Source: Bacteroidota bacterium (lineage in GTDB: Bacteria; Bacteroidota; Bacteroidia; AKYH767-A; JAHEYN01). Taken from it: a stretch of DNA of 33,686 bases. Positions 1 through 17,925 of this stretch are shown piece by piece. Both the position numbers and the translations under genes were made by a program. The stretch lies in contig CANFOZ010000023.1 in NCBI GenBank assembly GCA_947448795.1, positions 1 through 33,686 of the forward strand. Reading direction: 5' to 3'. Numbering within the stretch: position 1 is the stretch's first letter; each line of letters starts with the position of its first letter. The notes beneath the pieces are model-generated. The model did no database searches and was not told where the DNA came from. It saw only the letters and a program-made list of their open reading frames with translations.

Positions 1-411
1 GGCGATGGATCACCGAGCTTCACAGGAACAACAGCGGCACATCAATACACTGCCGCAGGCCTTTATACCGTAACGCTAACAGCACGTAACGGAAGCTGCG
101 ATGGCAGCTCTCAGCAACTCCTGATGGTGGAGCAAAATCCAACGGGTATTCGTGAGTCTGATGTAAAGAATGGTGTGTCTATCCTATCCCAAGAAGGCTC
201 TGTTGATCTATACTTCAATCTTACCCATGAAGCAACAATGGACATTAGTATAAACAATATACTTGGACAAGAAGTTTTTTATGTCGCCGGCTACAAAGCT
301 TCTAAAAACAAATTGTCAGTCGAGCTAGGGAGTGCTACTGAAGGGCTGTATTTCCTGCATATAAAACAGCAGGACCAGGAGATTACAAAGAAGTTTTTAT
401 TGAGAAAATAA
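1..411 (+). CDS. C-terminal fragment of a secreted PKD-like-domain protein with a T9SS type A sorting domain (5' end outside the window)
   Basis: The frame is open from base 1 (GDGSPSFTGTTAAHQYTAAGLYTVTLTARNGSCDGSSQ..., PKD-like) and ends in ...NILGQEVF...LYFLHIKQQDQEITKKFLLRK, typical of Por secretion (T9SS) tails. Confidence 0.8.
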   Translation, partial: GDGSPSFTGTTAAHQYTAAGLYTVTLTARNGSCDGSSQQLLMVEQNPTGIRESDVKNGVSILSQEGSVDLYFNLTHEATMDISINNILGQEVFYVAGYKASKNKLSVELGSATEGLYFLHIKQQDQEITKKFLLRK

Positions 412-441: not shown

Positions 442-624
442 ATGAAATTAAACTACGTTCTTTTTATTCTCGCCTGTCTATCCGCGACAACGCTTTTTGC
501 ACAGCCCTGCCCTCCTGGCTGCCCTGACATTGTCCCGATTGATGGAGGCATAAGTTTATTGGTGGCGGCAGGAGTCGCTTACGGTGCTAAAAAAGTGCAC
601 GAAAGAAAAAAGAAGGCACAATAG
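442..624 (+). CDS. 60-aa secreted mini-protein with a PID-CTERM-like (exosortase-type) C-terminal sorting signal
   Basis: Signal peptide MKLNYVLFILACLSATTLFA, short QPCPPGCPDIV segment, then a PIDGG motif, hydrophobic helix ISLLVAAGVAYGA and basic tail KKVHERKKKAQ. Directly upstream of an exosortase-like gene. Confidence 0.8.
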   Translation: MKLNYVLFILACLSATTLFAQPCPPGCPDIVPIDGGISLLVAAGVAYGAKKVHERKKKAQ

Positions 625-630
625 CAGCGT

Positions 631-1161
631 ATGAATCTAATTGAAACAAGACCGGTGCTGAGGTTTTTAATCCTCGCCACCGGTCTTTATATTTTATGGT
701 ATGTTGTATATGACCTCTGGCTTCACCCAACAGGACAACTAGATAGTATTGTTGTTGAGAACAGCATCATCTTAGCAAAGAACGTGTTGGCTGGATTGGG
801 CTACAGTGTCTTTACAGATACACGAATGATCGGCGTTGCGGGTGCAGGTGGCGTATGGATAGGTGATCCCTGCAACGGAGTTCAACTGTTTGCATTGTTT
901 GCCGGATTTATAATTGCCTTTCCAGGCCTAGGCATTCACAAGCTATGGTTTATACCTGCAGGCATTTTGAGTATTCATTTATTAAATGTGATGCGTATCT
1001 GTGCGCTTATCCTCATACAGAAACATGCGCCAGGCTCTCTGAATTTCAACCACACCTATACCTTCACTTTTTTCATGTATGCCTTTATTTTCGGCACTTG
1101 GATGCTTTGGGTTAAAAAGGCTTTGCCCGAAAAAGGCGATCATTCAAAAGAGCATTCATAG
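631..1161 (+). CDS. exosortase/archaeosortase family transpeptidase (XrtX-like or another Bacteroidota type)
   Basis: Multi-TM protein with the exosortase catalytic pattern: GDPCNGVQLFALFAGFIIAFPG (Cys), HLLNVMRICALI (Arg), FNHTYTFTFFMYAFIFGTWMLWV (His). Confidence 0.82.
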   Translation: MNLIETRPVLRFLILATGLYILWYVVYDLWLHPTGQLDSIVVENSIILAKNVLAGLGYSVFTDTRMIGVAGAGGVWIGDPCNGVQLFALFAGFIIAFPGLGIHKLWFIPAGILSIHLLNVMRICALILIQKHAPGSLNFNHTYTFTFFMYAFIFGTWMLWVKKALPEKGDHSKEHS

Positions 1162-2474
1162 AGCAGGTGTTTGATGCACCTTTGCTCGCCACTCCTTGTT
1201 TCAAACAGGTTCTCTACGATTCGTAGCTTACTGATTTTTTCTGAAGACGCATGCTTTTCGTTCCAATCAGAAACAATAAACCGTGCGAGGTTATCTTTAA
1301 ATTCGGGCTCGTGTATGAAAGGACAATAATAGATGTAATTCCGCCAGCGCAAAGAGGCATACGCATCGTTTAAGGGCAGTTGCTGATTCGCAGTGTTTAT
1401 TCCTTCTAATTCAACAACAACAGCCTGACGCATTGATTCGCTTGAGAACATATTCCAGCGCTGATCGAGTCGCAATGCATAGGCAGGGAGCATTATAAAC
1501 CGAGGGCCATGAAGCAGTTGCAAGGATATTATGTTTAGAAACAACATATAAAACAACAGCATTAGTAAAGCCACTTTACGATAGCGACTTGGCTCCGACA
1601 TAACAGGCTTTGTTGCCGCTGAAGCAGGCCAAATTCCGAGCAATGCAAGTAGGCCGACCCAAGAAAAAACCCCTAGTCTAAAGAAGAGTAGATTAGCTAT
1701 ATGGAAACATGCAAATAGCCCTATAAAAGAGAATCGAAAAAGACGGTTTTTAAATGGGATAAGCAACAAAAAAGGCAAGGTCAATTGACCTATAATCACC
1801 CCAATTGCAAGACTCGGTGATAATCGAACAAAGGCATTAAAATATGGACCTGCAAGATCTGTCATGTGGGCAACATGCTCAAAGGAATAATCGCCATTTC
1901 CAGCTTTTGCAAGCCCAGCACCTACATACATGCATACAAGCTGTATAACAAGCGCCAGTGAAGCAATCGATGCAAAGTCGTGATCGGTTTTTGTATTGAT
2001 TTTTCGAGCATCCCAAGAATATCTGCTGCCTAATGGAAGAAACATCGACCAAAACAAAACAAGGCGTAAGAGTTGATCGCCACCGTTGAGCAAATATTGA
2101 TTGCGGTTATGCAAAGAAACAAGCAGCAACCAAGACAAGACTGTCATCAGTTGAGTGCGCACGCCAATTAACAACAAGAATGCGATGATTGCTGAAACAA
2201 CAAACAATACATATTGCCAAACGGGAGAACCACTCCAGGCATGCATGCAAAAATAGCTTGGCTCCCAAAGTATTCGATGCATGAAATCGCGAGGCAATAC
2301 GCCTACATCTGAATAATGTGCCGAGATCCACGATCCTCTTTCCAATAAATCCAAAAGCAAAACACTACCCAAACTGATGCGCATCAGCGCCAAGGCTCGC
2401 CGATCGACCGATGCGATGATGCGCGACCAATTCGTCACAGCACGATAAAAAATATCCGCACCTTTGATTTCCAA
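1140..2474 (-). CDS. HTTM-domain (vitamin K-dependent gamma-carboxylase-related) multi-pass membrane protein
   Basis: LALMRISLGSVLLLDLLERGSWISAHYSDVGVLPRD and LVSLHNRNQYLLNGGDQLLRLVLFWSMFLPLGSRYS, typical of HTTM proteins. 3' end overlaps the exosortase gene convergently by 22 bp. Confidence 0.8.
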   Translation of the reverse strand: MEIKGADIFYRAVTNWSRIIASVDRRALALMRISLGSVLLLDLLERGSWISAHYSDVGVLPRDFMHRILWEPSYFCMHAWSGSPVWQYVLFVVSAIIAFLLLIGVRTQLMTVLSWLLLVSLHNRNQYLLNGGDQLLRLVLFWSMFLPLGSRYSWDARKINTKTDHDFASIASLALVIQLVCMYVGAGLAKAGNGDYSFEHVAHMTDLAGPYFNAFVRLSPSLAIGVIIGQLTLPFLLLIPFKNRLFRFSFIGLFACFHIANLLFFRLGVFSWVGLLALLGIWPASAATKPVMSEPSRYRKVALLMLLFYMLFLNIISLQLLHGPRFIMLPAYALRLDQRWNMFSSESMRQAVVVELEGINTANQQLPLNDAYASLRWRNYIYYCPFIHEPEFKDNLARFIVSDWNEKHASSEKISKLRIVENLFETRSGEQRCIKHLLYECSFE

Positions 2475-3001: not shown

Positions 3002-3009
3002 TACATTTG
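3002..3009 (+). promoter_or_regulatory. Bacteroidota -7 box TACATTTG upstream of the nucleotidyltransferase
   Basis: Matches TAnnTTTG, 9 nt before the preferred ATG at 3019. Confidence 0.4.
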
Positions 3010-3018
3010 CGGTTGAAA

Positions 3019-4038
3019 ATGACAAAAAAGAATTTCAAAGTAATTATCCCTGTAGCGGGCATTGGAAGCAGACTGCGCCCGCATACGCATACACAGCCCA
3101 AAGCTTTGGTGCCCGTAGCTGGCAAACCTATACTCTCGCACATCATCGAAAATTTGATGGAGGCGGGTATACATGATTTTATTTTCATCATTGGGTATCT
3201 TGGCGACAAGGTAGAATCCTATATCACCGAAAAATATCCGGACTTAAATACCCGTTTTATTGTTCAGGAGCCAAGAGAAGGGATTGCTCATGCGGTATGG
3301 TCGGCAAGGATGGAGGTAACGGACCAAGATGATTTACTGATTGTTCTCGGTGATACCATCTTCGATGTGAACTTAAAAGACATATTAAATTTACCTATAT
3401 CCTCACTTGGTTTAAAGCGCGTGGATGACCCGCGGCATTTCGGTGTAGCCGAATTGAATACCGATGGATTTATTCAACATCTTTCTGAGAAACCGCTTGT
3501 TCCTACATCCAACTTGGCCTTAGTGGGTATTTATTTGATCAAGGAAGCGACGATGTTGATGGAATCGATCGACTACCTTATCAGCAATAACCTGCGCACC
3601 CAAAATGATTTTCATTTGACAGATGCGCTAATGCGCATGATCGACCAAGGAGTTAAAATGGGAACCTTCCCGGTTGAGAATTGGTATGATTGCGGCAGCA
3701 AAGAAAACCTCTTGGAAACCAATGCCATTCTTTTGAAGCGTTATCCACCAGAACCCTTTTGCGAGCATGCTAATCCAGCGTCTAACAACATCGTAATTCA
3801 GCCCGTTCGAATAGCCGCTAATTGCAAGATTACCAATTCTATCATTGGACCAAATGTGTCGATTGGAGAAAACACGATCATCACATCATCCATACTGGGC
3901 GACTGCATCATTGGCTCCTACTCGCAGCTCGAGAATGCCGTTTTACATCAATCGGTAATCGGCAATGACGCGTCTTTGAAAGGACTTAGTCAGAGCTTAA
4001 ACATTGGCGACAACACAGAAATTGACTTTAGTTCATAA
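3019..4038 (+). CDS. sugar-phosphate nucleotidyltransferase
   Basis: KVIIPVAGIGSRLRPHTHTQPKALVPVAGKPILSHI signature plus C-terminal left-handed beta-helix hexapeptides (ITNSIIGPNVSIGENTIITSSILGDCIIGSYS). ATG at 3019 preferred over the track's TTG at 3007. Confidence 0.9.
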   Translation: MTKKNFKVIIPVAGIGSRLRPHTHTQPKALVPVAGKPILSHIIENLMEAGIHDFIFIIGYLGDKVESYITEKYPDLNTRFIVQEPREGIAHAVWSARMEVTDQDDLLIVLGDTIFDVNLKDILNLPISSLGLKRVDDPRHFGVAELNTDGFIQHLSEKPLVPTSNLALVGIYLIKEATMLMESIDYLISNNLRTQNDFHLTDALMRMIDQGVKMGTFPVENWYDCGSKENLLETNAILLKRYPPEPFCEHANPASNNIVIQPVRIAANCKITNSIIGPNVSIGENTIITSSILGDCIIGSYSQLENAVLHQSVIGNDASLKGLSQSLNIGDNTEIDFSS

Positions 4039-4047
4039 TACAAAACC

Positions 4048-5316
4048 ATGAAAAAAGACACTGCCATTTTCAACCTCATCCAAGAGGAACTCGAACGCCA
4101 ACAACACGGCATCGAACTTATCGCTTCAGAAAACTTCGTAAGTCAGCAAGTGATGGATGCCATGGGCTCCTGCTTGACAAACAAATATGCTGAAGGCCTG
4201 CCCGGCAAACGCTATTATGGCGGTTGCGAAGTAGTAGATAAAGTGGAACAACTTGCTATTGATCGTGTGAAAGAATTGTTTGGTGCAGTGTGGGCAAATG
4301 TTCAGCCGCACTCGGGCGCGCAAGCCAATGCAGCGGTTATGCTCGCTGTGTTAAAGCCAGGCGACAAAATACTTGGATTCGATCTTTCGCACGGTGGCCA
4401 TTTAACCCATGGTTCGCCGGTAAATTTCTCTGGTAAATTATACAATCCTGTATTTTACGGAGTAGATGAAGAAACAGGTCGCCTCAATTACGATAAGATG
4501 CAGGCAATCGCAACAGCTGAGCAACCTAAGCTCATCATTGCAGGCGCTTCCTCCTACTCGCGCGATTGGGATTTTAAACGCATGCGCGAAATTGCTGACT
4601 CGGTTGGCGCTTTGCTGCTAGCCGATATCGCGCATCCTGCAGGCCTGATAGCAGCAGGCTTGCTTACTAATCCACTGCCACACTGCCATATTGTTACAAC
4701 AACGACGCACAAAACACTGCGTGGTCCGCGTGGAGGTTTGATCATGATGGGGCACGATTTTCCAAACCCATTTGGATTAAAAACACCAAAAGGCGAGATA
4801 CGTATGATGTCCTCTATTCTTGACGCAGCTGTTTTTCCAGGCACTCAGGGTGGTCCTTTAGAGCATGTCATCGCTGCAAAAGCGGTTGCATTCGGAGAAG
4901 CATTAACCGACGAATACAAAGCGTATTGCAAGCAAGTTATGAGCAACGCATCAGCAATGGCAAAAGCCTTTATGGACAAAGGCTACAAAGTCATTTCAGG
5001 CGGCACCGACAACCACAGCATGCTTATTGATCTTCGATCTAAAAACATCAGTGGAAAAGCAGCCGAGAACGCGCTTGTAAAAGCCGACATCACACTCAAC
5101 AAAAACATGGTGCCTTTCGACGACAAATCTCCCTTTGTAACCTCGGGCATTCGCGTTGGAACACCTGCTGTTACGACGCGTGGTTTGAAAGAAAAGGATG
5201 TTGTACAAGTTGTTGAATTACTCGACGAAGCCTTGATGAACATTGAAAACGAAGCACATCTTTTGGAAGTAAAGAAAAAGGTAAACACCTTTATGAAGGA
5301 CTTCCCGCTGTATTAA
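4048..5316 (+). CDS. glyA: serine hydroxymethyltransferase
   Basis: [73 protein letters not shown]. Confidence 0.98.
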
Positions 5317-16218: not shown

Positions 16219-17925
16219 ATGCCAACAGCACTGAAATCGATTACATATATAGCCCTTGTTGGTATTTGCAGCATGCTGATGTGCAGCACAACGCAGGCAC
16301 AGCCTATTCAAAACTATTTCATTCGCTTCGCAGACAAAATCAACACCCCTTTTAGTTTAAACCAGCCACAGGACTACCTTTCACAACGATCAATTGCACG
16401 ACGCGAACGCCAGCATATCGCCATCAACGAGCAAGATTTGCCAGTTGATCCCGCCTATATTCAACAGCTAAAAAACACCGGCGTTGAGCTGCTCAACCGA
16501 AGCAAGTGGATGAACGGCATCACGATTCGCATCGCCGACACCAATCAGATAGCAAGCACCCTGCAAGCCATCATGCTGCTCCCCTTCGTGTCGGGTAACA
16601 CAGAAGTCAAGCGCCTTTCGCATCAAAGCTCGACTACCCTCCCTTCCAACAAACTTGATATTCCCGTTTTACGCCTTGCTGACGCTAGTTCAGTACAAGC
16701 CACAGATTACGGATACGGCTACAATCAGATTCACATGCTGAATGGCGACTCCCTTCATCAGAAAGGCTTTCGAGGCAAGGGCATGCAAATTGCGGTGTTG
16801 GATGCCGGGTTTAAAAATGCCGACCAGATCCATGCATTCGATAGTATTCGCAACAGAGGACAAATCCTCGCCACGCACGATTTTGTTGTTGGTGATGACG
16901 AAGTTTATTCCGACGACCAACATGGCTGCTGCGTGTTGTCGAGTATAGCCTGCAACCTGCCGGGCCAACTTATAGGCACCGCGCCGGAAGCAAGTTTTTA
17001 CCTGCTTCGTTCCGAAGACAATGCCTCAGAGCATCTTATCGAAGAATACAATTGGGTATCGGCTGCTGAATATGCGGATAGCGCTGGCGCCGACATTATT
17101 TCCTCTTCCCTTGGCTACTCTATATTCGACGGCTCTGGACCAAGTCACACCTATGCCGACCTTGATGGTCATACCACCGTTGTTACGCAAGGCGCCGAAG
17201 CCGCATTTGCGCGTGGGATGCTCGTTATTAACAGCGCAGGCAACGAAGGCAGCGGCAGCTGGCATTACATCATCGCACCAGCCGACGGCGACCATGTTAT
17301 GGCTATTGGCGCGGTAGACTCGGTGGGCATCAAAGCAAACTTCAGCTCCTTCGGCCCAAGCTCTAGCGGAGCCATCAAACCCAATGTAGCAACGCAAGGC
17401 AAAGGCACCTGGCTCGCCGATCCGTATGGAAATATCTTCTCCGGCAACGGCACATCCTTCGCTTGCCCTGTCCTTTCTGGAATGGCAGCATGCCTGTGGC
17501 AAGCAGCACCCAATGCAAGCAATTTGCAAATCAAGCAAGCCATTGAAAGCAGCGCCACACAAGCCGACAGTCCCGATTTTTCACTAGGCAACGGCATCCC
17601 AAACTTTGCAAAAGCACTTTACTATTTGCGCGATAAGACACAGACAAACTTCACTTCCAGTCGCATACTCGGGCTTTATGGAAATCCCTTTCGAGAATCC
17701 GTTGGTGTAAATTTCTACTCCCTAACAGAGCAAACCATTACGTTAACCCTCATGGATATTTTAGGCAGAACCGTTGTTCGTTACACAAAAAGCCTCCAAG
17801 CCGACAGCTTCAATCAGCTGCTAGTGCCTGAAGGCGCTGATATTGGAAGTATATCCTCTGGAATATATTATCTTCACATCGTAACTTCAACTAATGATTT
17901 TTTACTTAAGGTTTTAAAGAATTAA
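16219..17925 (+). CDS. secreted S8 family (subtilisin-like) serine peptidase with T9SS sorting domain
   Basis: Catalytic triad context MQIAVLDAGF (D), DDQHGCCVLSSIA (H), GNGTSFACPVLSGMAA (S). Tail ...GIYYLHIVTSTNDFLLKVLKN. Confidence 0.92.
   Translation: MPTALKSITYIALVGICSMLMCSTTQAQPIQNYFIRFADKINTPFSLNQPQDYLSQRSIARRERQHIAINEQDLPVDPAYIQQLKNTGVELLNRSKWMNGITIRIADTNQIASTLQAIMLLPFVSGNTEVKRLSHQSSTTLPSNKLDIPVLRLADASSVQATDYGYGYNQIHMLNGDSLHQKGFRGKGMQIAVLDAGFKNADQIHAFDSIRNRGQILATHDFVVGDDEVYSDDQHGCCVLSSIACNLPGQLIGTAPEASFYLLRSEDNASEHLIEEYNWVSAAEYADSAGADIISSSLGYSIFDGSGPSHTYADLDGHTTVVTQGAEAAFARGMLVINSAGNEGSGSWHYIIAPADGDHVMAIGAVDSVGIKANFSSFGPSSSGAIKPNVATQGKGTWLADPYGNIFSGNGTSFACPVLSGMAACLWQAAPNASNLQIKQAIESSATQADSPDFSLGNGIPNFAKALYYLRDKTQTNFTSSRILGLYGNPFRESVGVNFYSLTEQTITLTLMDILGRTVVRYTKSLQADSFNQLLVPEGADIGSISSGIYYLHIVTSTNDFLLKVLKN

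Follow-up and report, generated by a model that had tools for sequence, protein, structure and literature searches.

The gene at positions 442-624 of the 33,686-nucleotide stretch of Bacteroidota DNA analysed here (the whole stretch is hereafter called the window) encodes a PID-CTERM microprotein, MKLNYVLFILACLSATTLFAQPCPPGCPDIVPIDGGISLLVAAGVAYGAKKVHERKKKAQ, that lies between the gene for a T9SS-exported protein and the gene for exosortase XrtX, and genes of this family are paired in many genomes with genes for T9SS proteins that share a domain with the gliding adhesins RemA and RemZ. We give about an even chance to the reading that the exosortase-anchored microprotein retains a RemA-type T9SS adhesin on the cell surface, possibly through disulfide exchange. 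The association of XrtX with the microprotein and the RemA-like T9SS domain provides, to our knowledge, the first concrete XrtX partner, and it bears on the role of exosortase substrates of some 14 residues and on the surface retention of type A T9SS adhesins.

The PID-CTERM microprotein and its exosortase

In the 60-residue product a signal peptide is followed by a brief Pro-rich exported stretch containing two cysteines, then by the PIDGG motif, a hydrophobic segment and a basic C-terminal tail (Table 1). The NF046080 profile matches residues 31-54 (E 2.5e-13), and the extreme C-terminus has the PID-CTERM layout of PIDGG, hydrophobic stretch and KKVHERKKKAQ tail, as the N-terminus has a signal-peptide layout that recurs across the family. 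An earlier note on this DNA had predicted an exosortase substrate, which this match and the adjoining xrtX (6 bp downstream of the PID gene) bear out. The same note had foreseen a tiny mature part with two cysteines, and if signal peptidase cuts between LFA and QP and XrtX cuts at PID, the mature peptide would indeed be the 14-residue QPCPPGCPDIVPID. At scores above the NF046080 cut-off this is the sole PID_CTERM protein of its own genome (assembly 93.7% complete). A lipoprotein reading via Cys12 (ILAC) was discarded, as the preceding hydrophobic stretch is short and Cys12 is no feature of the family.

Table 1. Features of the window around the PID-CTERM gene (positions in the window).
Feature	Position	Strand	Basis
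C-terminal 136 aa of T9SS-exported protein (PKD domain and T9SS type A sorting domain)	1..411	+	TIGR04183, 35.6 bits (cut-off 23); Pfam PKD_4 and Por_Secre_tail
TAACTTTG, possible own promoter of the PID gene, 20 bp 5' of its start codon	414..421	+	sequence and motif scan
PID-CTERM microprotein, 60 aa	442..624	+	NF046080, 49.5 bits (cut-off 26)
Sec signal peptide, aa 1-20, likely cut between LFA and QP	442..501	+	by eye: hydrophobic core, AxA-like site
Predicted mature peptide with Cys23 and Cys27	502..543	+	sequence; Cys pair here in 98/135 relatives
PIDGG motif, predicted XrtX recognition/cleavage site	535..549	+	near-invariant in 40 representatives; pN/pS 0.03
Transmembrane segment and basic cytoplasmic tail (KK...)	550..621	+	NF046080 match to aa 54; conservation
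Exosortase XrtX, 176 aa; Cys81 (871-873), Arg122 (994-996), His141 (1051-1053)	631..1161	+	NF046081, 200.2 bits (cut-off 170)
XrtX-associated membrane protein, 159 aa	2518..2997	+	NF046082, 65.5 bits (below cut-off 75); homologues 3' of XrtX in 72/80 loci

A gap of 30 bp separates the end of the T9SS gene from the start codon of PID, and TAACTTTG within it fits the Bacteroidota -7 promoter motif, TAnnTTTG. Cys81, Arg122 and His141 of XrtX occupy conserved positions in an alignment of 20 XrtX proteins and presumably form the active site, as in the exosortase family; a search by sequence found no solved structure of any XrtX relative. The window's sorting signal, the adjoining exosortase and the associated protein thus all match the PID-CTERM/exosortase X families (NF046080, NF046081, NF046082), the last below its cut-off. 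An HTTM-domain gene (1140-2474, minus strand) sits between xrtX and the gene for the associated protein and splits the usual operon. The associated protein is followed by a gene for an rmlA-like sugar-nucleotide transferase (3007-4038, plus strand) and by glyA, encoding serine hydroxymethyltransferase (4048-5316, plus strand), which comes after the associated protein in about half of the XrtX loci in many families. The window holds a second T9SS candidate at 16219-17925 (plus strand), a subtilase whose C-terminus shows a weak T9SS sorting domain.

Among the 295 genomes of the class, PID_CTERM occurs in 124 and XrtX in 158, and both occur together in 117 (41 with XrtX only, 7 with PID_CTERM only and 130 with neither; Fisher 3e-37, a value that, like those below, is inflated by the relatedness of the genomes). 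In 80 named XrtX loci, all from Bacteroidota and largely Flavobacteriales-like, Crocinitomicaceae and MAGs, the order PID - XrtX - associated protein recurs, with PID just upstream of XrtX in 65 loci and the associated protein present in 72; glyA lies nearby in 39, an HTTM gene in 15 and DUF5819 in 10. PID genes are also often found away from XrtX, with several copies in some genomes. In G001, the other genus of the family to which the window's genome belongs, the order is Wzc, a T9SS protein of 1494 aa, PID, XrtX, the associated protein, an rmlA-like gene and glyA. Two XrtX matches carry one in-frame stop (TGA or TAA; G045:C4:278856-279353 and G285:C22:154578-155045) and may be pseudogenes.

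Small size is a property of the whole family, and an exceptional smallness of this product is not supported: in 135 distinct PID proteins, collected by searches of relatives and of the 295 genomes, practically all are about 60-90 aa long, with mature parts of about 10-30 aa (approximate, since the cleavage sites were set by a simple rule). The only far longer case, a 995-aa open frame with a PID_CTERM match (G224:C1:2167132-2167203, within L106), may be a genuine long substrate or just a reading frame free of stops. The segment before PID comprises about 30% Pro, 16% Gly and only some 1% Glu. Since QPCPPGCPDIVPID itself has no Glu and HTTM genes lie near just 15/80 XrtX loci, we agree with the note that gamma-carboxylation is implausible, and the HTTM protein was rejected as a functional partner on these grounds. 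In 54 independent pairs of relatives pN/pS was 0.03 in PIDGG, as against 0.19 in the ten residues preceding it and 0.22 in the transmembrane segment. Of these figures only the contrast is used, since ungapped alignment inflated the signal-peptide pN and the choice of pairs drew on part of the mature region; the mini-peptide is thus constrained like the transmembrane segment. Purifying selection on PIDGG and the ten residues before it, together with the co-occurrence of PID_CTERM and XrtX and the position of PID just upstream in most XrtX loci, rules out a non-coding or chance open reading frame at 442-624.

Upstream T9SS proteins and their RemA-like domain

In the named loci, 34 of 72 PID genes directly follow a gene for a T9SS protein whose sorting domain is of type A. 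When all PID genes with enough upstream sequence are considered, a T9SS or RemA-like protein is encoded directly upstream of 47/95 XrtX-linked and 20/33 unlinked genes; about half of the XrtX-linked PID genes thus have no T9SS gene directly upstream, which counts against the proposed adaptor role. The unlinked genes show that the pair persists without XrtX alongside. Where a PID gene has moved or been duplicated, the T9SS gene often accompanies it, and in one genome (G274) all five PID genes are preceded by genes for RemA-like proteins, five in number, with the domain ending about 500 bp upstream. Overall, we regard the pairing of peptide and T9SS protein genes as well supported.

The T9SS partners have in common a domain of about 460 aa that precedes the sorting domain and that no Pfam or NCBIfam model matches in the members scanned. 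Searching with a profile of this domain recovered two chains of solved structure, RemZ (E 1.1e-26) and RemA (7e-25), from work on the F. johnsoniae T9SS translocon. In these gliding adhesins (PDB 8gl6, 8gl8), type A T9SS substrates like the partner protein, the homologous region immediately precedes the T9SS sorting domain. An AlphaFold model of the domain is mainly beta (pLDDT 89.5, pTM 0.87), and a Foldseek comparison of this model with the PDB gave no match below E 0.1; in the RemZ structure only the C-terminal sorting domain is well resolved. In the window, the 5' part of the T9SS gene at 1-411 lies beyond the contig start, so any RemA-like domain would lie past the contig edge, and the 136 aa encoded there match over their full length the C-terminal end of a protein of the same genome that carries the RemA-like domain (42%, 1.5e-30).

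With presence scored at E <= 1e-20, the RemA-like domain occurs in 153/158 XrtX genomes versus 31/137 others, and in 122/124 PID genomes versus 24/130 with neither PID nor XrtX (Fisher 2.6e-49, likewise inflated by relatedness). The T9SS marker SprA is found in 286/295 genomes, and the co-occurrence of the domain with XrtX is therefore not mere presence of the T9SS. Genomes often encode several domain proteins and one PID, which also speaks against the proposed adaptor role. One order-level family (f4) has XrtX loci and PID proteins with 0 or 1 Cys and essentially no RemA-like domain protein, indicating that this partner is not universal. Four loci of this family (L011, L013, L016 and L018) encode, beside XrtX, PID peptides some 10 residues long that have a single Cys (QSCNPNVPID or QNCNPNVPID) or none.

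Cysteines that vary together in peptide and domain

The earlier note had suggested checking whether CxxxC and PIDGG are conserved, and the answer is divided: PIDGG is conserved, and a Cys pair is common in other spacings. Two cysteines precede PID in 98 of the 135 proteins, none in 32 and one in 5, and the spacing is C-x4-C in 74, C-x6-C in 14, C-x5-C in 6, C-x7-C in 2 and C-x3-C in 2, the last being a rare form found only in the window's peptide (CPPGC) and in L127. The commonest form of the pair is CxPPPC, typically CWPPPC, and it is present in many lineages. After thinning to 40 representatives the pair is found in 17 and no cysteine in 22, from which we conclude that the pair is a lineage trait.

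Comparison of 59 adjacent peptide/domain pairs revealed one domain column (Y-[ST]-C-[VI]-x-L-[EQ]-D) that is Cys in 39/45 domains next to a peptide with a Cys pair and in 0/14 next to a peptide without one (Fisher 2.9e-9, subject to the same inflation). Domain proteins that had played no part in finding this column served as a test. As predicted, all three domain proteins elsewhere in the window's genome have the column Cys (ASACIILDDL, SSACIFLEDL and SSTCIVLEDL), as against neither of the two in the sister genus G001, whose peptide has no Cys pair. In further genomes tested in this way the column Cys was present in 12/12 non-adjacent domain proteins, the PID pair being confirmed in most of these genomes and weak or unread in G180, G149 and G280, and it was found in 0/3 domain proteins of the pairless G098. 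Within family f9 it is present in the pair-bearing G159 and absent in the pairless G295 and G045.

Across 104 proteins the column Cys accompanies the peptide pair in 51/56 and occurs without it in 4/48. These four exceptions are two domain proteins each in G053 and G110, which have the column Cys although no peptide with a pair is known from either genome, the one known in each being pairless. The domain protein that actually adjoins the peptide in G053 has no column Cys. Conversely, five pair-bearing neighbours lack it. A search of pairless genomes for a hidden pair-bearing PID, able to detect C-x4-C spacing only, found none. The domain tree shows only 4-5 changes in the Cys state of PID, too few for significance in an independent-contrast test. 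We rate the association between the tracking cysteines as strong, and as moderate evidence that the two are functionally linked. The descriptions of the PID-CTERM/exosortase X families that were consulted name the parts only, and both the pairing with RemA-like T9SS proteins and the tracking cysteines are absent from them. In our search, which covered open-access papers, none named the PID-CTERM/XrtX system, and the pairing and the tracking cysteines appear to be new.

Candidate mechanism and competing readings

Exosortases are thought to cut at their signature motif and to join the protein to another molecule. We propose that the product of 442-624 would be a dedicated microsubstrate of XrtX: Sec and signal peptidase would expose the 14-residue Pro-rich peptide with its Cys pair on the periplasmic side, and XrtX would cut at PID and attach the C-terminal end thus created to a component of the envelope, which by analogy with other exosortases and archaeosortases is probably a lipid or glycolipid. 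We read the anchored peptide as an adaptor because only about 14 residues would remain after processing; it would keep in the outer envelope, against an exopolysaccharide-linked background, the RemA/RemZ-type T9SS surface protein whose gene immediately precedes its own. Fusions to RemA are partly anchored on and partly released from cells (PMC12618676). A peptide working by itself is not supported in view of the upstream T9SS protein, the co-occurrence of the RemA-like domain with XrtX and the domain Cys that tracks the peptide pair.

In most lineages the peptide Cys pair may form a strained disulfide that the single Cys of the adhesin domain could attack to give a covalent link. From the same phylum, SprF and PorG offer a direct chemical precedent: the internal disulfide of their twin-Cys motif is attacked by one GldK Cys, which ties them covalently to the track as it moves, and PorG variants with just one Cys exist (PMC12635249). 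The peptide (with a pair or, rarely, one Cys) and the domain (with one Cys) have the same stoichiometry, and the paired cysteines would likewise act as donor disulfide to one partner Cys. The likeness is one of mechanism and not of membership: SprF and PorG sit in the outer membrane and connect to a track in the periplasm, unlike the PID peptide, and SprF has C-x-C, as compared with C-x3-C in the window's peptide and C-x3-C to C-x7-C in the PID family. RemZ, unlike most pair-linked partner domains, has no Cys at the tracking position in the alignment. A disulfide between peptide and adhesin would account for cysteines whose covariation is confounded by shared ancestry, and the full version of this proposal, in which the peptide is a covalent docking peg whose disulfide is attacked by the conserved Cys of the RemA-like domain, such that exosortase and T9SS meet in one disulfide-linked surface complex, is tentative and in our view rather doubtful.

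The signal peptide, short motif, transmembrane segment, basic tail and EPS neighbourhood are common to the PID-CTERM/XrtX and the PEP-CTERM/EpsH systems, the latter serving many full-size substrates as opposed to one or few microsubstrates for XrtX. PEP-CTERM exosortases are reportedly linked to EPS in the classical case, and XrtX might accordingly join the peptide to lipid or polysaccharide and so hold EPS or O-antigen, the T9SS gene being a syntenic neighbour that uses the same surface. Wzc-like tyrosine kinases in 58/80 XrtX loci and ABC-2 polysaccharide exporters in 26/80 speak for this, as does XrtF, another Bacteroidota exosortase with unknown substrates, which F. johnsoniae requires for surface colonization and for biofilm, lost in xrtF mutants (PMC10936215). 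It would leave unexplained that the peptide-T9SS pair is kept at 20/33 sites away from XrtX, that the RemA-like domain itself, beyond the T9SS, co-occurs with XrtX, and that the cysteines track each other, and we consider it unlikely.

An uncleaved peptide, acting as a single-pass membrane accessory of XrtX or of its associated protein with PIDGG as a contact motif, would suit a small protein that adjoins xrtX and has a short conserved transmembrane segment and basic tail, and our search of open-access papers turned up no report of XrtX cleavage. Yet PID genes are frequently separate from XrtX and present several times in a genome, and the motif-transmembrane-basic layout is that of sorting signals, making such a role improbable. 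Still less credence goes to a disulfide-looped peptide that leaves the cell after two cuts as a signal or antimicrobial: a predicted mature part of 14 aa that is Pro-rich and has a Cys pair, and a CxPPPC form conserved in many lineages, would agree with it, but the neighbourhood has no recurring dedicated exporter, receptor or modifying enzyme, exosortase-type signals suggest anchoring, and the pairing with T9SS proteins argues against release. Nothing specific points to a signalling peptide or a glycan carrier, and of the options listed in the note the surface-attached peptide fits best, consistent with the adaptor that we favour. The Wzc-like kinases divergent from PID/XrtX (L158:3-473, L135, L177 and others) end in very long Tyr-Gly repeats (YGYGYGYG).
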